The position numbers were made by a program, and so were the translations under genes. Shown here one piece after another: positions 8,261 through 19,646 of a DNA stretch of 44,651 bases. Source of the DNA: Planktothricoides sp. SR001. GTDB taxonomy: Bacteria; Cyanobacteriota; Cyanobacteriia; Cyanobacteriales; Laspinemataceae. The number at the start of each line of letters is the position of its first letter. The first letter of the stretch is position 1. The stretch covers positions 7,314 to 51,964 of the forward strand of contig NZ_LIUQ01000048.1 of assembly GCF_001276715.1 (NCBI RefSeq). Reading direction: 5' to 3'. The notes below the pieces were generated by a model that saw nothing but the letters and a program-made list of their open reading frames with translations, ran no database searches and was not told the origin of the DNA.

Positions 8261-9499
8261 TTAAGCTGAACATTCCTGAACATTGATTTCCAATGCTCGG
8301 ACTGTAACTATAGCAATACCATCATTACTGACAGTAAAAAAGGAATCCCTCAAAGCACGTAACATTATATTACGTGCGCCATTTGCATCTCTAGGAGTTT
8401 GACTGCCACAGGGAGGACACTTGTGTATTTTCGCACCACCTAGTTTGGTATGGCGATGTCCACACACTCCACAGGTTTTAGATGTATGACTTTCGCCCAC
8501 ATCAAGCACCACGCAACCACGCTTTGCTGCTTGATGTTTCAGAATTAACTTAAAGTGATAATGCGACGCCAGTTGCTCCACTTGGGGAAACCCCAAGACC
8601 GCACAGGCTCCCCAAGTCAGCATACTTCTGACTGTTTTAGACCTAATTTTTCTTCTTGACTTGGCTACCATGTGGGAAGACTCAAAGCGAGGTAGAAAAA
8701 TTAATCCATAGTTATTAGTCAGGTAATGGGCTGCTTTTTTGTGTACTTCGTCAATTAAGTTCCGAATCTTTTCTCGAATCCGATTAGCCGCTTTTCTCAT
8801 GGAACGGCGTCGTTTGGCATTTACCTTAGTTGAACGACTAATTAAATCATATTCGTGTTGACATAATCTCACGATTCGACCCATGTCCCCGTTGCCAATT
8901 TCAATGACTCGATCGCCGTCATACCCAGTCAAAAAAGTTCTGACTCCAGGATCTAAGGCAATTATTTTCCTTGAAGATGTATGACTTTTAATTACAGGTT
9001 CAGGAAAAACAGCGAACCATTTACCACGCCGATAAGTCAATTGAGTACCATAATCCCATTGCTCTGGTATAGGTTCACTTGCCTTAAACTTAAGTGTTTT
9101 TGTTAATTGACTGTACCATGTTCCTTTGGTGAAATTGGAATTATTAAATTTGATTGTTTGGCGGGGGTCACGGATACTTCGGAATTTGGCATCACAACTC
9201 GCACTTATTGCTTGATGTGCGTCAAAGATAGCATTTTGTCTGATATGGCAAGGCGTTTCTTTCACCCATTGAGGTAAATCGGATTGCATGACCAGATTTC
9301 GCAATTTCAGCTTACTAATCCGAGTCGTTGATTGACGCTGCATGGCGATCGCTTGGTTAAAACAATAACGGCAAGCCGCCCGCCATTTTTTCCAAATTTT
9401 TTCCAGTTCAGGACTGGGATAAATCCGGATATTCTTTGATTGCAGACTTATATTTTGTAAGTCTGTAGAGTTGGCGACTGAAGATGTGAACAATGGCAA
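8261..9499 (-). CDS. tnpB: TnpB, IS607-type RNA-guided nuclease of an insertion sequence
   Basis: The open frame reaches 9871, but its first 124 codons are an out-of-frame reading of tnpA. I place the start at the TTG at 9499, which has GAGGA five bases upstream and gives 412 residues, the usual TnpB size. Key RuvC residues are present: D183 (IALDPGVRTF), E273 (FLPRFESSH) and D371 (RDANGARN). The zinc finger CGVCGHRH then KCPPCG is complete. TnpB proteins are transposon-encoded, omega-RNA-guided DNases, so this copy may be active. It overlaps tnpA, as in other IS607 elements, and its guide RNA would be expected near the 3' end, toward the cupredoxin leader. The start codon is uncertain; the product assignment is not. 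Confidence 0.9.
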   Translation of the reverse strand: MPLFTSSVANSTDLQNISLQSKNIRIYPSPELEKIWKKWRAACRYCFNQAIAMQRQSTTRISKLKLRNLVMQSDLPQWVKETPCHIRQNAIFDAHQAISASCDAKFRSIRDPRQTIKFNNSNFTKGTWYSQLTKTLKFKASEPIPEQWDYGTQLTYRRGKWFAVFPEPVIKSHTSSRKIIALDPGVRTFLTGYDGDRVIEIGNGDMGRIVRLCQHEYDLISRSTKVNAKRRRSMRKAANRIREKIRNLIDEVHKKAAHYLTNNYGLIFLPRFESSHMVAKSRRKIRSKTVRSMLTWGACAVLGFPQVEQLASHYHFKLILKHQAAKRGCVVLDVGESHTSKTCGVCGHRHTKLGGAKIHKCPPCGSQTPRDANGARNIMLRALRDSFFTVSNDGIAIVTVRALEINVQECSA

Positions 9500-9991
9500 G
9501 GATGTCCTCAACCAATTCTCGTTCTGGGGATAAACTGTCTTGGTTGAGAACCACGATTTTTGTTTTGTCGAGTTCGCACAACCAGGTTCGGAGGTCAAAC
9601 CCGAAACGAACAAGTCTGTCTCTGTGGGCAACCACAATAAATCCGACATCCCCTTGACGGACTCGCTCCAAAATGGCTCTAAGTCCTTTTCTTTTGAAAT
9701 TAAGACCACTGGCGATATCAGTGACGAGCTCGGCGTTAGGGTAGAGTTCGAGTAATTTTGCAGCTTGGCGATCGAGGTCTGCTTTTTGTCCACGGCTGGA
9801 AACGCGGGCATAAGCGATAATTGCCCGTTGCGTTCTCTTGTTGGAAATTCCCGTGTAGGATGCAATATCATATCGCCTCTGCCCTGATGGTGTCCTGATC
9901 GCTTGAATCTTGCCGTCTCTTTCCCATCTTCTTAGGGTATGTAAGCATACACCTATTGAGATGTTTCACTTGGTGATGTATATTTCGGCAG
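9408..9991 (-). pseudogene. tnpA: tnpA, IS607-type serine recombinase, frameshifted near its N terminus
   Basis: From about 9957 down to 9408 one frame encodes a nearly complete IS607 transposase. It reads a MerR-like helix-turn-helix (LHTLRRWERDGKIQAIRTPSG), then the resolvase core with the nucleophile Ser in AYARVSSRGQKADLDRQ, then IVVAHRDRLVRFG and the C-terminal ILAIVHIFS. The first dozen residues (PKYTSPSETSQ) are in another frame and run into TAG at 9953-9955; one extra base there would join them. The codon before PKY is CTG with a stop just upstream, so the normal ATG also seems lost. Unless rescued by recoding, TnpA should not be made full length. Confidence 0.75.
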
Positions 9992-13509: not shown

Positions 13510-13902
13510 TTATTTTAAAGATTCAAATTGTTCATTTTTTGCTTGGATTTGATCCACGATAATCTCACACACCAAGTCACAAATTTGAAACAAAAAAGGA
13601 TTAGCAATTTGATAAAAAACGTTGACCCCTTGAGGCTCTCTTTTGACAATGCCTGCTTGGGTCAAAATCTTTAAGTGTTTGGAAACATTTGCTTGCCCCA
13701 GGCCGGTTTCCGCAATAATCTCTGTGACATTTTTTGGGCTTTTTTTTAAACAACATAAAATCTGAATTCGACTGATTTCTGAAAGCACTTTAAAGAAATC
13801 AGCCACCATTCCTAGAGCGGTAGGCGGTAGTTGGGATATTTTAGCATCATCCAGGTTTAATGTTGCCAAAGAATCGGTAATTACGGGTATTTTGGTCGGC
13901 AT
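13510..13902 (-). CDS. ArsR-family repressor, candidate persulfide/dithiol sensor (BigR/SqrR-like)
   Basis: Start taken at the ATG at 13902 (MPTKIPVITDS). The frame is open to 13950, but a 14-bp palindrome lies in that stretch. The 130-residue protein is a winged-helix ArsR regulator: FFKVLSEISRIQILCCL, then the recognition region LGQANVSKHLKILTQAGIV and the wing REPQGVNVFYQI. Cysteines C50/C51 (ILCCLKK) and C108/C112 (QICDLVCEII) fall where BigR and SqrR carry the pair that forms a polysulfide bridge. Classic metal-site motifs such as the ArsR CVCDL box are absent. It diverges from genes for an ETHE1-like enzyme, a rhodanese and a SulP transporter, supporting a reactive-sulfur role. The ligand is inferred. 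Confidence 0.85.
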   Translation of the reverse strand: MPTKIPVITDSLATLNLDDAKISQLPPTALGMVADFFKVLSEISRIQILCCLKKSPKNVTEIIAETGLGQANVSKHLKILTQAGIVKREPQGVNVFYQIANPFLFQICDLVCEIIVDQIQAKNEQFESLK

Positions 13903-13919
13903 AAGGAAAAATATCCTCG

Positions 13920-13933
13920 ATATATCGATATAT
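13920..13933. promoter_or_regulatory. Candidate operator palindrome ATATATCGATATAT
   Basis: A perfect 14-bp palindrome centred about 24 bp upstream of the preferred ArsR start codon. ArsR proteins bind such AT-rich dyads and usually repress their own gene. Assignment is by position and symmetry only. Confidence 0.5.
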
Positions 13934-14239
13934 AGACTCAATTCGCTCACTGGCTTATTTTAATTTAAATAAGCAAATCAGGATCCGTTCATTGTGAACC
14001 AGGGGTCATCACTTCTATGGCAAGAATTGATCGCCAAGGGGAAAATTTATCGAAACAAATGGTCAGCCTCCAAGGGATCAGGAAGAATTATCTGGCATGA
14101 CATAATTAAATCAATATTGTTTGGCCAGCAACATAAGTCAAACGATCAGAATATTACCACATAGCTTTATAGTAAATCAATAGGTAGAGTAATTTTTTCT
14201 AAAATTACTGGTTACTGGTTACTTGTTATTTGTTAAATA

Positions 14240-14276
14240 ACTAGGGACTAGGGACTGGGGACTGGGGACTGGGGAC
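14240..14276. repeat. GGGACTA/GGGACTG heptanucleotide array
   Basis: About five tandem copies of a 7-bp unit, varying between ACTAGGG and ACTGGGG, in the 540-bp divergent region upstream of the sulfur operon promoter. The remainder of 13951-14240 is AT-rich with no coding frame or clear structure. Confidence 0.85.
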
Positions 14277-14301
14277 AAAAAAATTTGGCGATCGCTCTCC
14301 C

Positions 14302-14330
14302 TTGACATATCTACTATATTACTATATAAT
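14302..14330 (+). promoter_or_regulatory. Consensus sigma-70 promoter of the persulfide operon
   Basis: TTGACA (14302-14307), exactly 17 bp, TATAAT (14325-14330). Transcription would begin near 14337, leaving a leader of about 108 bases before the ATG at 14445. The spacer holds a tandem direct repeat TACTATAT (14312-14319 and 14320-14327), the second copy running into the -10. This is a natural place for a repressor to block polymerase. A perfect promoter suggests strong expression when not repressed. Confidence 0.75.
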
Positions 14331-14444
14331 TATAATAAGATAAATTAAATAAGAACGCGATCCAGTAGATACGACTGGTAGCGGACTATATTTTTTCTGC
14401 ATTTTTTCTGCTTATCCCAATGTACAACTACCCGGAAGTCAGCC

Positions 14445-15140
14445 ATGTTATTTAGACAACTGTTTGATCAAGAATCCTGCACCTATACTTATCTGATCGC
14501 CGATCGCACCACCAAAGAAGCGGTTTTGGTCGATCCAGTGATCGAACAAGTCGAACGTGACTATAAGTTAATTCAAGAACTGGGTTTGACCCTGCGTTAT
14601 TGTCTGGAAACTCATGTCCATGCGGATCATATTACGGGAACGGGGAAGCTGCGCGAACTGACTGGCTGTTCCGGTATCGTCCCTGAAGGTGCTCAGGTGA
14701 GTTGTGCCGATCGCCATATTGCCGATGGAGAAACTTTAAAAGTGGGTGAGATCGAAATCGAGGCGATCGCCACTTTGGGTCACACAGATAGCCACCATGC
14801 TTATCTAGTCAATCGGCAGATGGTACTGACTGGAGATGCCTTGTTTATTCGGGGATGTGGACGCACGGATTTCCAAAGTGGGGATGCGGGAACCTTGTAT
14901 GATGCAGTCACCCAAAGATTGTTTACTTTACCCGATGAAACCTTGGTTTATCCCGGTCACGACTACAAAGGTATGATGGTTTCTACCATTGGCGAAGAAA
15001 AACAACTGAATCCCAGATTTGTGGGGCGCGATCGCGACAATTTCATTCAATTTATGAGTTCTCTGAATCTGCCCAACCCGAAAAAAATCATGGAAGCCGT
15101 CCCCGCCAACCAAAGTTGTGGTCAAGTTGCCTCCGTTTGA
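14445..15140 (+). CDS. ETHE1/Blh-like MBL-fold persulfide dioxygenase
   Basis: 231 residues. The metallo-beta-lactamase motif is THVHADHITG, with H57, H59, D61 and H62. The mononuclear iron site expected for persulfide dioxygenases is H57, H113 (LGHTDSHH) and D131 (LTGDALFIRGCGRTDFQ). H172 is in YPGHDYKG. The RGCGRTDFQSGD segment is characteristic of the ETHE1/SdoA/Blh group, which oxidises glutathione persulfide to sulfite and glutathione. The second metal site used by glyoxalase II is therefore not expected to be functional. First gene of an operon with a rhodanese 74 bp downstream and a SulP transporter. GGAAG precedes the ATG by about 9 bases. Confidence 0.9.
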   Translation: MLFRQLFDQESCTYTYLIADRTTKEAVLVDPVIEQVERDYKLIQELGLTLRYCLETHVHADHITGTGKLRELTGCSGIVPEGAQVSCADRHIADGETLKVGEIEIEAIATLGHTDSHHAYLVNRQMVLTGDALFIRGCGRTDFQSGDAGTLYDAVTQRLFTLPDETLVYPGHDYKGMMVSTIGEEKQLNPRFVGRDRDNFIQFMSSLNLPNPKKIMEAVPANQSCGQVASV

Positions 15141-15214
15141 TAAATTGGCCCGCTAAAATCTAAGAAATATCATTGACAAAATTATCACATCAAATCAACC
15201 AAGGATCAATTTCT

Positions 15215-15745
15215 ATGACTATCTCAGCTAACGGACAAATTCAAACTGTCAATGCCGAAACCCTCAAACAATTAATTGACCAAAACCTTGTCCAACTGAT
15301 TGATGTCCGCGAACCTTCGGAGTTTGCCGGAGAACATATTGCCGGGGCAACTCTACTTCCTTTGTCCAGTTTTGATGCCAATAAAGTACCCCGTCAAACC
15401 TCTCCCCAAGTAGTTTTATATTGCCAAAGTAGCAATCGTTCGGGACAAGCGGCGAAAAAACTATTAGAGGCTGGCTTTGAAAAAGTAGTTCATATGGAAG
15501 GGGGGCTCAATGCTTGGAAACAAGCCGGTTATCCCACAAAAGTGAATAAAAATGCCCCCATTAGCATTATGCGCCAAGTGCAAATTGTCGCTGGTTCCTT
15601 AGTCTTAACTGGAACTATTCTGGGGGCGAATTATCCCAAATTTTTGTTTTTGAGTGGTTTTGTTGGTGCCGGTTTAGTCTTTTCGGGGGCGACCAATACT
15701 TGTATGATGGCGAAGTTATTGGCCAAGTTACCCTATAACCAATAA
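15215..15745 (+). CDS. Rhodanese domain protein with C-terminal DUF2892-type membrane tail
   Basis: Read from the ATG at 15215, which has AAGGA nine bases upstream; the longer frame opens with a TTG at 15173. 176 residues. The rhodanese domain (about 8-107) has IDVREPSEFAGEHIAGA and the active-site loop CQSSNRSG with C70 and R75, then HMEGGLNAWKQAGYP. Residues 118-170 form two transmembrane helices of the DUF2892 type, tethering the domain to the membrane. Rhodaneses move sulfane sulfur between thiols; beside a persulfide dioxygenase this one probably presents or regenerates glutathione persulfide or thiosulfate. A conserved-looking C163 sits in the second helix end (NTCMMAKLL). Confidence 0.92.
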   Translation: MTISANGQIQTVNAETLKQLIDQNLVQLIDVREPSEFAGEHIAGATLLPLSSFDANKVPRQTSPQVVLYCQSSNRSGQAAKKLLEAGFEKVVHMEGGLNAWKQAGYPTKVNKNAPISIMRQVQIVAGSLVLTGTILGANYPKFLFLSGFVGAGLVFSGATNTCMMAKLLAKLPYNQ

Positions 15746-15765
15746 CCTTATAACCAGTAACAATG

Positions 15766-15788
15766 TAGGGTGGGCAATGCCCACCCTA
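15766..15788. repeat. Palindrome TAGGGTGGGCA/TGCCCACCCTA
   Basis: Two 11-bp arms around a single central A, between the rhodanese and SulP genes. It resembles small dispersed hairpin repeats of cyanobacteria and could partly terminate or stabilise the upstream mRNA, tuning SulP expression. No T tract follows. Confidence 0.7.
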
Positions 15789-15846
15789 TTCATTTAAAAT
15801 ATAAACATGGCCAAATTAAGAAAAACACTATTATAAATATTCAGAA

Positions 15847-17595
15847 ATGACTAATAAATTAGATCGCTCAAAATTTTGTGCTACTTTGAGCGAATATTTG
15901 CCAATTATAGACTGGGGTTTAAATTATCGGCGGCAAGATTTATCTGGAGATATCACGGCAGGAATTATCGTTGCTAGTTTGTTAATTCCTCAAGGGATGG
16001 CTTATGCAATGTTGGCCGGTTTGCCGCCCCAAGTGGGACTTTATGCCAGTATTTTACCCCAGGTAATTTACGCTTTTTTGGGCACTGCGAGAATGCTATC
16101 CGTTGCCCCGGTTGCGGTGGATTCTTTGATGGTGGCAACGGCAATTAGTGCCTTAGCCCCCGATGAGTCAAACTATTTGGCTTATGCGCTTACCTTGGCT
16201 TTTTTGGTGGGGGCAATCGAGATTTTTATGGGGGTTTTTCGCCTAGGATTTCTGGTGAATTTTCTCAGTCAAGCGGTGATTTCCGGCTTTATTACGGCGG
16301 CAGCAATTATCATCGGCTTTAGCCAAGTTAAGCATTTGTTTGGCTTGAAAATTACCCAGACAGAATCATTTTTAATGACTTTGAATTATCTAGGGCAGCA
16401 ACTTAGCAATACTAATGGGATTACCCTCGGTTTAGGAGTAGTATGCTTACTGAGTTTATTATATTTTAAAAAAGGGTTGGGAGAACAACTGAAAAAATGG
16501 GGCGTTAATCCAAATGCGATCGCCTTTATCAGTAAAACAGGCCCGCTGGTTGTGGTGATCGTCAGTTCTTTAGTCGTTTGGGGATTACAATTAGATCGAG
16601 TAGCGGCAGTTAAAGTGGTGGGCAATATTCCCCAAGGTTTGCCACCGCTAACTGTACCCTTATTTGACATTAATATTATTAAATCTTTGAGTACCCCGGC
16701 TTTAGCTATTAGCTTCGTCGGATTTATGGAAGCCTTTGCGGTGGGTAAATTTTTAGCCAGTAAAAAAGGCCAAAAAGTCGATGCGAATCAGGAATTTATT
16801 GCGTTGGGAGGCGCAAATATAGCTGCCGCATTTACTGGAGGTTATCCGATTACCGGGGGTTTAAGTCGTTCGGTGGTGAATTTTTCTGCGGGGGCAAATA
16901 CGGCACTTGCGGGAATGATTACCGCCGTAATTTTAGCCCTAACCGTGTTATTTTTAACCCCGTTATTTTATTTTCTGCCCCAAACCAGTTTAGCGGCGAT
17001 TATTTTAGTGGCTGTGGGCAATTTACTGGATTTTGCTACATTGAAACGTTTATGGAATTATGATAAAGCTGATGCGATCGCGTGGTTAGCGGCTTTTGTG
17101 GCGGTATTACTCACCAGTGTAGAAAAAGGAATTATGCTCGGTGCAGTAATTTCTTTATTATTACACTTATGGCGAACCAGTAAACCCCATATAGCGATTG
17201 TGGGACGGGTAGAAGATACAGAACATTTTAGAAATATTTTACGCCATCCGGTGAAAACTTGCCCCCATGTTTTAGCCGTCCGCGTGGATGAAAGCTTATA
17301 TTTTGTGAATACAAAGTATCTGGAAAATTATGTCATGCAAGCGGTGCGACGGAATCCAGAGGTGAAGTCTTTATTATTGGTTTGCAGTGCGATTAATTTA
17401 ATTGACGGTAGTGCTTTGGAAACTTTACAAAGCTTGATTTTGGATTTAGAGAACATGGGGATCGAGTTTTATATGTCAGAGGTGAAAAGCCCGGTGATGG
17501 ATAAGTTAGAAAAGGTCGGTTTTGTGGAAAAATTAGGGCGTGATCGCATCTTTTTAACCACGGATCGGGCGATGAAATTCCTGGAATGTCGTTAA
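15847..17595 (+). CDS. SulP-family inorganic anion transporter with STAS domain
   Basis: 582 residues: an N-terminal domain of about 11-14 membrane spans and a cytoplasmic STAS domain (about 465-570). SulP landmarks include DITAGIIVASLLIPQGMAYA near residue 36, GLPPQVGLYASILPQVIYAFLGTAR and GGYPITGGLSRSVVNFSAGA near residue 330. The STAS domain has VDESLYFVNTKYLE and SAINLIDGSALETL. SulP proteins carry sulfate, bicarbonate or other anions, often with sodium or protons. Here the neighbours handle persulfide, so export or import of sulfite, sulfate or thiosulfate is the likely job, though a BicA-like bicarbonate role cannot be excluded from sequence. Last gene of the operon, 101 bp after the rhodanese. 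Confidence 0.92.
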   Translation: MTNKLDRSKFCATLSEYLPIIDWGLNYRRQDLSGDITAGIIVASLLIPQGMAYAMLAGLPPQVGLYASILPQVIYAFLGTARMLSVAPVAVDSLMVATAISALAPDESNYLAYALTLAFLVGAIEIFMGVFRLGFLVNFLSQAVISGFITAAAIIIGFSQVKHLFGLKITQTESFLMTLNYLGQQLSNTNGITLGLGVVCLLSLLYFKKGLGEQLKKWGVNPNAIAFISKTGPLVVVIVSSLVVWGLQLDRVAAVKVVGNIPQGLPPLTVPLFDINIIKSLSTPALAISFVGFMEAFAVGKFLASKKGQKVDANQEFIALGGANIAAAFTGGYPITGGLSRSVVNFSAGANTALAGMITAVILALTVLFLTPLFYFLPQTSLAAIILVAVGNLLDFATLKRLWNYDKADAIAWLAAFVAVLLTSVEKGIMLGAVISLLLHLWRTSKPHIAIVGRVEDTEHFRNILRHPVKTCPHVLAVRVDESLYFVNTKYLENYVMQAVRRNPEVKSLLLVCSAINLIDGSALETLQSLILDLENMGIEFYMSEVKSPVMDKLEKVGFVEKLGRDRIFLTTDRAMKFLECR

Positions 17596-17684
17596 TTTTG
17601 CTCGGATTTACTCTCCTGGGGAACATTCACAGGTCTTTTTGAGTTACCGATCTAGGTTAAATGATTCTTAGGCCCGGTGTAACG

Positions 17685-18461
17685 ATGAAATTAACAAAAT
17701 CAAAATACTGGATAGTAATTTTTCTGGGAATTTTGGGCGAGATCGGCGCGCTCGGCGCGCTCGGCACAAAATTAAGTTTTGCCCATCTTTCATCCTTTAA
17801 TAATTCGCCCTCCGCACCATCGGTAAACCTTGACCTAGATCAATCTAATGAAATGGCTTTGTTAACGGCGATGCCGAATTCTCGGATTAATATTCGCAGT
17901 GGAGCGGGGACAGAATTTAGCTCGGTTCACTATGGTCTGGCAGGCGATCGCGTGACTATTTTAGAGTCAGCATTGGCAAATTCCTCCGATCCTATGAGTC
18001 CTCGGTGGTATCGAGTTCGCTTTCAGCAATCCAGGGCAGAAGGTTGGGTAAGAGGAGATTTTTTGATTCAAACCACAGAATCGGTAAGTAATCGTTGCCA
18101 TGAAAGTTTAGCCCAAGCCAGAACGGAGTTAAACAACGTGAGAAATGGTTTTCTGAACAGAATTATTTTAAGAAGAGATTCCCTTTCGCCGCTCCGAGAA
18201 AGACCGAATAAGTTAATTTTGGGGCTGGGTGGATCGGGAGAAGATGAGGTGCTTTCCTCCGAACCATTGATGAAACCAATTAGCGATCGCCTAATTCAGA
18301 GTTGTGGGAATGCCAGTTCCGTTCAGTTTAGTTCTGGTTATTCTGGCTGGCATCATGTTTATGGTTTGATCGATGGTCGCGTTAGCCTCTTTGAATGCGC
18401 TGATTTTGATCCTTCCAGTGGGCTGCAGCTAAGATGGGGGGAATACAATTGTGATATTTAA
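17685..18461 (+). CDS. Secreted SH3b-domain protein
   Basis: Start chosen at the ATG at 17685 (MKLTKSKYW), giving 258 residues; an ATG at 17661 is in frame but less likely. Residues 7-35 are a signal peptide or anchor (WIVIFLGILGEIGALGALG). A bacterial SH3 domain spans about 58-118: SRINIRSGAGTEFSSVHYGL, then a W-Y-R-V-R-F strand and GWVRGDFL. The remaining 140 residues hold four cysteines and end ECADFDPSSGLQLRW; no family recognised. Bacterial SH3 domains often bind peptidoglycan or other surface ligands. The first 89 codons and the upstream region are duplicated 1007 bp downstream as a broken copy. The signal region contains a small GGCGCGCTC duplication. Confidence 0.8.
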   Translation: MKLTKSKYWIVIFLGILGEIGALGALGTKLSFAHLSSFNNSPSAPSVNLDLDQSNEMALLTAMPNSRINIRSGAGTEFSSVHYGLAGDRVTILESALANSSDPMSPRWYRVRFQQSRAEGWVRGDFLIQTTESVSNRCHESLAQARTELNNVRNGFLNRIILRRDSLSPLRERPNKLILGLGGSGEDEVLSSEPLMKPISDRLIQSCGNASSVQFSSGYSGWHHVYGLIDGRVSLFECADFDPSSGLQLRWGEYNCDI

Positions 18462-18614: not shown

Positions 18615-18958
18615 TTACTCTCCTAGGGAACATTCACAGGTCTTTTTGAGTTACCGATCTAGGTTAAATGATTCTTAGGCCCGGTGTAACGATGAAATTA
18701 ACAAAATCAAAATACTGGATAGTAATTTTTCTGGGAATTTTGAGCGAGATCGGCACAATCGGCGCGCTCGGCACAAAATTAAGTTTTGCCCATCTTTCAT
18801 CCTTTAATAATTCGCCCTCCGCACCATCGGTAAACCTTGACCTAGATCAATCTAATGAAATGGCTTTGTTAACGGCGATGCCGAATTCTCGGATTAATAT
18901 TCGCAGTGGAGCGGGGACAGAATTTAGCTCGGTTCACTATGGTCTGGCAGGCGATCGC
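18615..18958 (+). pseudogene. Truncated duplicate of the SH3b-protein gene
   Basis: A 344-bp direct copy of 17608-17951 with about five mismatches, including the leader, the start codon (18692 by the same reasoning) and the coding part up to HYGLAGDR. It breaks exactly after GCGATCGC at 18951-18958. The open frame then closes within four codons. Downstream DNA belongs to a COP23-type gene on the opposite strand. Confidence 0.9.
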
Positions 18959-19646
18959 TTTTCTGCATAATAATCCCATCAATCAAACTTTCTATGAGAA
19001 TTGAGGTAATCTCTAAATCATCTTCACTTTCCAAAATTAAGCCAGTACCAGCTTCTCCTTTTAAAGCACTTAAAAGTTGAGCAATAATTCGGCCATTAGT
19101 ATCGCGATTTTCTGTTTTCAATGTCCATAAAGTATTATTAGGACTACACTCTACTTCCGCAGCGGCACAAATTACGGGCATTCCATTCACCACTCCTTCA
19201 CTTAATGGCGGCAAGGTCGGTTGAGCGCTTTGCCGCAAACAATACTGATTAAACCTCTTTCTCACAGCGCGGCAACGTTCTGAAGCGGTCAAATTTTCCC
19301 CAAACTCTTGGGCGCCTTCTTCGGTCCATTGAATTATTTGCCGTTCTCCAGCCCGATGCCAAGAAACCCTGCTACTGCTGCGGCTGCGTATCCGTTTATA
19401 TAATGCCAGAATGGTTTGGTTGTCGCTGTTGCATTAAAATCGATATTTCACGTCTTGACGCCGACTGCGCCCAGTTTCTTGGGGTTGATTATGGCTGGGG
19501 TTGCTGTCACTGTTTGGGGTGGTTTTTTGGGCTAAAAATGTGCCTGATGGCAATGGTGTTTTGGCATTAAAGATAAAGTTTATTTCGGTAATTTGAACGG
19601 CAATTATTCCTCCAATTGTAAATAAAAATATTGGTTTGAGATTCAT
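18959..19646 (-). pseudogene. COP23-domain protein gene with premature stop and lost 3' end
   Basis: From the ATG at 19646 (MNLKPIFLF, AGGGA nine bases upstream) one frame encodes a signal peptide, a polar linker (TTPNSDSNPSHNQPQETG) and QDVKYRF, then TAA at 19434-19436. It continues in the same frame with CNSDNQTILALYKR and the COP23-like core: SWHRAGERQIIQW, ERCRAVRKRFNQYC, VVNGMPVICAAAE, LWTLK and AQLLSALKG. COP23 proteins usually have an aromatic residue at that spot, so one base change (TAT or TAC to TAA) explains the stop. The 3' end fuses at 18958 to the duplicated SH3b fragment and reads 11 foreign residues to a stop at 18924. COP23 was described as a membrane-linked circadian oscillating protein in Cyanothece-type cells; function unknown. 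Confidence 0.75.

Follow-up and report, generated by a model that had tools for sequence, protein, structure and literature searches.

Among the repressors of the ArsR family, BigR, SqrR, YgaV, SoxR and sHdrR have sulfur-oxidation genes as neighbours and likely targets, and in those described as persulfide sensors the paired cysteines lie 66-67 positions apart (SqrR 41/107, BigR 42/108, YgaV 31/98, sHdrR 50/116, according to PMC9774590, PMC9774250 and PMC12423496). Here we describe an ArsR-family gene, arsR, from a 44,651-nucleotide stretch of contig NZ_LIUQ01000048.1 of the cyanobacterium Planktothricoides sp. SR001 (the window), which is divergently oriented from genes for a predicted persulfide dioxygenase (PDO), a membrane rhodanese and a SulP-STAS anion transporter (Table 1). 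Judging from sequence comparison, it is fairly probable that its product is a repressor responsive to sulfane sulfur (persulfide or polysulfide), which controls a dispersed regulon of sulfide:quinone oxidoreductase (SQR), PDO, rhodanese and transporter genes and is BigR/SqrR-like with a different cysteine geometry. The sensor chemistry is what we infer, and a reactive-sulfur response is the best reading because of the gene neighbourhood of arsR and an operator common to PDO and SQR promoters. Such a response had been proposed in an initial annotation made from the DNA letters alone, and neighbourhood and operator bear it out; the roles it gave to a tandem CC, to a full set of BigR/SqrR cysteine columns and to a self-contained locus did not hold.

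Parts of this picture are already in print: arsR-like genes are often found near cyanobacterial sqr (PMC5061849), and homologues of SqrR and BigR occur in cyanobacteria (PMC9774250). The arsR-sqr pairs of Geitlerinema and other cyanobacteria, with 27 cyanobacterial sqr genes near arsR-like genes, are comparable to the system described here, but the available text of PMC5061849 offers no operator, cysteine analysis or PDO link. The ygaV-ygaP pair of Escherichia coli likewise places an ArsR-type regulator beside a rhodanese, and the window rhodanese carries a YgaP-like transmembrane domain; the E. coli genes differ in being co-directional, in having no PDO, SQR or SulP annotated in 6 kb and in their cysteine spacing. 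No description of the operator reported below, or of the cysteine set C50/C108/C112, was found in the full-text literature searched, outside which most subscription journals lie.

Conserved cysteines of the window ArsR

The winged-helix fold of the window ArsR is supported by a match to HTH_5 (49.8 bits), by a predicted structure with a mean pLDDT of 81.8 (residues 1-18 below 50) and by Foldseek, which with this model returned Rv0081 as the best hit, SqrR (6o8k) at rank 22, BigR (3pqj) at rank 35 and AntR at rank 50. The CsoR fold of CstR was not found in the protein, which matches HTH_5 and ArsR-type models. The predicted structure has C50 and C51 within its second helix (residues 43-54), and its last helix (102-129) carries C108 and C112. 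Orthologous loci were taken from the best 80 of 388 relatives (species genomes) together with 30 loci of same-order genomes (189 with a match); these 110 loci, minus 13 duplicates, gave 97 unique loci, and the conservation figures hold for this close, best-scoring set. Two alignments were made, A1 with the window protein plus 54 out of 70 non-redundant loci, and A2 with the window protein and 43 loci. C50 and C108 are each present in 97/97 loci and C112 in 95/97, with C51 found in 36/97.

All four cysteines had been reported by the initial annotation and are present as numbered from the ATG at 13902, with the suggestion that the tandem CC, together with an additional C108, could enable a different sulfur bridge. 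As C51 is kept in just over a third of the loci, a CC bridge is unlikely as a family mechanism, and the tandem CC was discarded as a key feature; judged by conservation it is incidental, and the conserved thiols are C50 and C108-x3-C112. The same counts bear on a role as a peroxide or disulfide sensor of the RexT kind, acting through vicinal C50-C51. RexT of Nostoc PCC 7120 is also a cyanobacterial thiol-based ArsR with a CC pair, which senses H2O2 and has a thioredoxin gene as its target, but its pair lies on alpha3 (PMC8960804), whereas C50 and C51 stand in the second helix of our model. Given also the poor retention of C51 we consider such a sensor highly improbable, and kinship with RexT was rejected on the position of the CC pair.

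The expectation that the cysteines would occupy the BigR/SqrR columns was borne out for C50, which falls in the alpha2 column and aligns with C31 of E. coli YgaV, and failed for C108 and C112, a result that goes half of the way to the refutation named by the annotation. MAFFT gapped the C-terminus against YgaV, and the alpha5 columns were therefore counted from the shared FY/LY motif. By this count the column of YgaV C98 is occupied by V116, with C112 and C108 lying 4 and 8 residues before it, that is one and two turns ahead of the BigR/SqrR column and at spacings of 62 and 58 from C50. The window ArsR, as aligned, thus shares one of the two defining BigR/SqrR cysteine positions and differs from those proteins in having three conserved thiols.

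A candidate operator at PDO and SQR promoters

Within 6.5 kb of arsR the 97 loci contain genes for PDO in 46 cases, TauE/SafE in 40, rhodanese in 38, SQR in 15 and SulP in 4, as well as the two YeeE halves in 7 and 6, and at least one of PDO, TauE, rhodanese, SQR, YeeE and SulP stands beside arsR in 59 of them. Plasmids of Pseudanabaena galeata and Acaryochloris 'Moss Beach' show the same gene order, PDO-rhodanese-SulP, which makes SulP a recurrent partner. Among 194 genomes ArsR is present in 50 of 67 with SQR and in 61 of 127 lacking it (Fisher p 4e-4), a co-occurrence signal that is weak because the thresholds and lists were hand-made, the species are related and our own species is included. 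In three diatom endosymbionts, which are reduced cyanobacteria (L020, L029, L030), arsR keeps C50, C108 and C112, and no listed sulfur gene is present in the scanned neighbourhood.

A palindromic motif search, with 76 of the 110 arsR upstream regions as the training set, yielded the candidate operator motif TATATTACtATATaGTAATATA, a palindrome of the form TATATTAC-TATATA-GTAATATA derived from arsR upstreams alone. Its log-likelihood was 503.9 as against 44.3-56.1 for four Markov-resampled sets, which had fewer starts (15 vs 40) and iterations. The strongest sites are those upstream of arsR (median 19.6 bits; 66/76 at least 10). The two best positions of the whole window stand in its arsR-PDO gap, the next in the window reaching 9.1 bits, and the second of these sites overlaps the spacer and -10 of a PDO promoter with full consensus; promoter-like sites in the whole region number 12, which is not above shuffles (mean 11.0). 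The second of the two stretches that the initial annotation had put forward for binding tests, 14280-14360, holds this site; the first, 13900-13960, contributes none of the 25 top-scoring positions of the window and was rejected as an operator. A short repeat of GGGACTGGGGAC type occupies 14243-14277, between the two sites.

In held-out regions, outside the training set and with duplicates removed, sites of at least 12 bits were found upstream of 18/23 PDO and 13/15 SQR genes, or in 23 of 29 merged gaps, as PDO and SQR often face one common gap, against 2 of 61 for eight other conserved neighbour families. Further families gave 3/4 (flavoprotein cluster), 2/9 (HetL-like pentapeptide gene) and 1/39 (rhodanese), and no site at this threshold was found upstream of TauE (0/39), SulP (0/5) or YeeE (0/8). 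Before duplicate removal, 9 of 514 control frames of at least 200 amino acids had a site, and 31/43 PDO/SQR promoters had one as against at most 5/43 with 300 permuted matrices.

The initial annotation was correct that no SQR gene lies in the window. The response is not self-contained, as another contig carries an SQR-like gene; the upstream gap that separates this gene from a divergent Hdr-like cluster has a 13.8-bit site. The SQR-like neighbour gene to which it is 66% identical has as its best model a type III selenoprotein SQR, below cut-off; the own-genome gene is 48-50% identical to plasmid genes annotated as type II SQR and may be of type II. The SQR-Hdr gap of a same-species genome (G037) has a site of 19.8 bits, and 20 of 30 SQR loci of the order, partly from genomes also in the motif training set, reach at least 12 bits. 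The proteins of the Hdr-like cluster (L118:8230-12723, contig C17) have 4Fe-4S and CCG domains, a second flavoprotein is encoded towards SQR, and one HdrB-like gene is split between two frames (8969-9439 and 9439-9861), perhaps through a frameshift or assembly error.

Genome scans used a sequence model, R1, based on 44 of the 60 sites that reached at least 14 bits, and scored 150 candidates per genome (150 of 2052 in our own 7.07 Mb genome). In that genome ranks 1 and 2 both fall in the arsR-PDO gap, with E values of 0.37 and 0.47. Three further places have E up to 10: those on C46 and C133 were discarded as lying within long coding frames, and the one on contig C138 (L168:2603-2624) is a lead, with a 19.1-bit site found on both strands some 200 bp upstream from an open frame resembling NAD kinase by eye. 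Of 19 genomes scanned (own and relatives), four had no match at E up to 2 and 15 had one, the best match being at PDO, SQR or ArsR (same 3 kb locus) in 11 of the 15: G000 (by coordinates), G183, G008, G096, G194, G004, G170, G002 (where PDO starts about 700 bp from the match), G130, G060 and G156. In G183, of the same genus, the sqr-hdrC gap holds the top-scoring site, followed at rank 2 by the arsR-PDO gap. The best match of G003 is near sulfurtransferase-like and Rieske-like frames, with PDO at a weaker match about 2 kb away; PDO of G006 is only at a weaker match, and no PDO, SQR or ArsR was seen at the best match of G079 and G005.

In the stretches covered from family f13 (11 genomes), no PDO lies close to an arsR. 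Eight separate PDO genes occur in this family, seven of them with a site scoring 17 bits or more and one with 5.2 bits; the same site accompanies a PDO fragment at a ninth place (L183), and there is no operator-like site at three PDO that follow a flavoprotein-like domain in a fused protein. These fusions, in three genomes of one genus (L180-L182), join PDO to a preceding FAD/NAD(P)-binding-like domain of about 490 amino acids, and PDO matches on two Nostoc plasmids are likewise annotated as FAD/NAD(P)-binding protein. Further sites were found on named plasmids, at the PDO of the P. galeata PDO-rhodanese-SulP genes (26.3 bits), Chroococcidiopsis arsR/DUF442 (23.8 bits), Nostoc arsR/DUF442-PDO (22.0 bits), the Synechocystis suoS/suoC gap (19.2 bits) and Rubrobacter (14.0 bits).

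Paralogues, rival signals and the proposed response

One paralogue, whose gene follows efp- and accB-like genes (identified by eye), has C108 and C112 with an alpha3 cysteine (C58) instead of C50, and its recognition helix, QANVSKHLK, is as in the window ArsR or very similar. A Rubrobacter relative, whose gene precedes sulfurtransferase-TauE-PDO genes and has its site starting 46 bp upstream, retains of the set just C108 and C112. As the window ArsR shares the alpha5 pair alone with these two proteins, C108/C112 would be the likelier sensor core, with C50 a lineage-specific partner. It is conceivable, if doubtful, that these proteins represent a repressor type with a C-x3-C alpha5 dithiol core and a third thiol moving between lineages (alpha2 C50, alpha3 C58, none in Rubrobacter), in which one operator code ties the regulators to PDO/SQR promoters across cyanobacteria and perhaps beyond.

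The paralogue data also leave room for cross-binding, and a real operator could be occupied chiefly by a paralogue, for example the accB-linked one, the window ArsR having a narrower or different role. In four genomes (G060, G130, G170, G113) the best ArsR match is that accB-linked paralogue, at just 40-41% identity, yet PDO or SQR sites exist, and a paralogue may therefore act there; moreover, the own-genome paralogue has a 10.3-bit upstream site (L119:5424), and another Calothrix ArsR-family gene has one of 13.6 bits. The motif was nevertheless derived from upstreams of window-type arsR, which carry the strongest sites, and the upstream sites of four of five paralogue loci reach just 7.8 bits, the fifth having none, so that we regard binding mainly by a paralogue as quite unlikely.

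The main chemical rival is an arsenic or antimony sensor, in which C50, C108 and C112 would form a trigonal As(III)/Sb(III) site, with sulfur genes as targets because arsenite and sulfide stress overlap. The three conserved cysteines would suit such a site, the fold matches include AntR, an antimony sensor, and an arsR next to a type II sqr has been interpreted as arsenic control (PMC11304991). Furthermore, Synechocystis SuoR, a 40% identical ArsR encoded on pSYSM beside the SQR gene suoS, is placed in an arsenic resistance system and is reported to bind the suo promoter region, which holds the suoS/suoC site (PMC4307280 for the resistance system and binding); it differs from the window protein in this arsenic context and in having W at position 50, no cysteine at 112 and other cysteines. 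However, the conserved neighbour clusters viewed (ten representatives family-searched or named) included no gene recognised as an arsenic gene, the CxC on alpha3 of the arsenic/metal ArsR type is absent from the window protein, which has no cysteine between 52 and 107, and the operator marks PDO and SQR promoters. A metalloid sensor is in our judgement unlikely.

We propose instead that the window ArsR probably switches on a sulfur-defence programme. The reduced dimer would sit on the TATATTAC-TATATA-GTAATATA operators, a pattern seen in the sequence, and would block its own promoter, the consensus-strength PDO promoter and the sqr/hdr promoters elsewhere in the genome. Once persulfide or polysulfide increases, through SQR activity or external sulfide, sulfur would bridge thiols of the C50/C108/C112 set and ArsR would leave the DNA. 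This would allow synthesis of PDO, to convert persulfide to sulfite, of the membrane rhodanese, to work toward thiosulfate, and of a transporter, SulP or TauE, these enzyme roles being assigned from the known SQR-PDO pathway.

Several observations weigh against a sulfane-sulfur repressor. The distal BigR/SqrR cysteine is absent, with V116 in the canonical alpha5 position, and the NCBIfam BigR model gives 37.6 bits against a cut-off of 155. No listed sulfur gene is found at 38 of the 97 loci, many of them on short stretches, and of the 55 loci with at least 4.5 kb on both sides 35 have a sulfur gene and 20 have none. Ten of the 30 SQR loci remain below 12 bits, and the strong half-site could in part represent a -10 box, kept for reasons other than ArsR binding. 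There is no site at the PDO of two Acaryochloris plasmids (one with the PDO-rhodanese-SulP order), at one Chroococcidiopsis PDO place, at a Calothrix SQR or at the flavoprotein taken for the sqr of Synechococcus PCC 7002 on pAQ7, the plasmid through which that strain was covered, and the four genomes with only a distant ArsR belong here too. In PCC 7002, moreover, sqr, which is of type I (PMC7042703), falls with polysulfide by the text of PMC12466478, the figure legend of which lists it among the responders.

According to the same source polysulfide raises pdo, rhod, tauE and cysK2 in PCC 7002, and the part available names no regulator of pdo, rhod and tauE (PMC12466478). Our analysis offers a candidate regulator, its putative operator and a target list for this induction in cyanobacteria with SQR and PDO, which live between oxygenic and sulfide-driven photosynthesis, and it suggests that arsR genes beside type II sqr and tauE, for which PMC11304991 gives arsenic control, be reinterpreted as those of sulfur sensors. 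On pAQ7 (L193:28193-29062) an 11.9-bit site lies about 105 bp upstream of a DUF2892-petC pair; a petC gene, this one or another copy, is raised by polysulfide in that strain (PMC12466478).

Gene content of the locus

Window genes were checked for open frames and named residues, and their proteins were subjected to family profile searches. The four frames are open at the positions of Table 1, and the residues and domains reported for the PDO, rhodanese and SulP proteins by the initial annotation are all present.

Table 1. Coordinates of genes and sites (positions in the window unless a locus is named)
Feature	Position	Strand	Remarks
arsR	13510-13902	-	130 amino acids from ATG 13902; C50, C51, C108, C112
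Operator-like site 1, arsR side, AATATTACCACATAGCTTTATA	14150-14171		18.8 bits; inside training region; model R1 genome rank 2
PDO promoter, TTGACA-17-TATAAT	14302-14330	+	12/12 sigma-70 consensus match
Operator-like site 2, TATATTACTATATAATTATAAT	14315-14336		18.7 bits; outside training region; model R1 genome rank 1
PDO (ETHE1/PDO type, predicted)	14445-15140	+	metallo-beta-lactamase family; H57, H113, D131, RGCGRTDFQ
Rhodanese with YgaP-like membrane helices	15215-15745	+	likelier start ATG 15215; frame open from TTG 15173
GC-rich hairpin, rhodanese/SulP gap	15766-15788		terminator-like on minus strand only
SulP-STAS anion transporter	15847-17595	+	TIGR00815, 504 bits (cut-off 380); Sulfate_transp and STAS PF01740
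SQR-like gene	L118:6584-7900; G000:C17:12586-13899		66% identity to an SQR-like neighbour gene

A longer arsR frame with a GTG start spans 13510-13950 (-) and encodes 146 amino acids. The closest solved chains to the PDO are 4ysb (2.7e-82) and ETHE1 4chl (1.1e-71), and its checked residues, the Fe ligands H57, H113 and D131, are invariant in the 46 cluster members of at least 200 amino acids (of 49). In the rhodanese both PF00581 (74.7 bits) and the C-terminal YgaP-like_TM domain PF11127 (36.2 bits) are over cut-off, the latter corresponding to the C-terminal membrane part, and the catalytic cysteine, C70 in CQSSNRS, is kept in 41/41. The SulP protein reached 149 of 880 against the BicA model. 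Given the strand of the hairpin, SulP could be either co-transcribed with rhodanese or transcribed apart from it. The window contains no RNA family at the gathering threshold and no tRNA. Elsewhere in it, tandem near-identical SH3-domain frames, the second short, occupy 17661-18461 and 18668-18970, and an IS605 OrfB/TnpB-type gene with a Cas12f1-like TNB domain lies at 8261-9871 (-).

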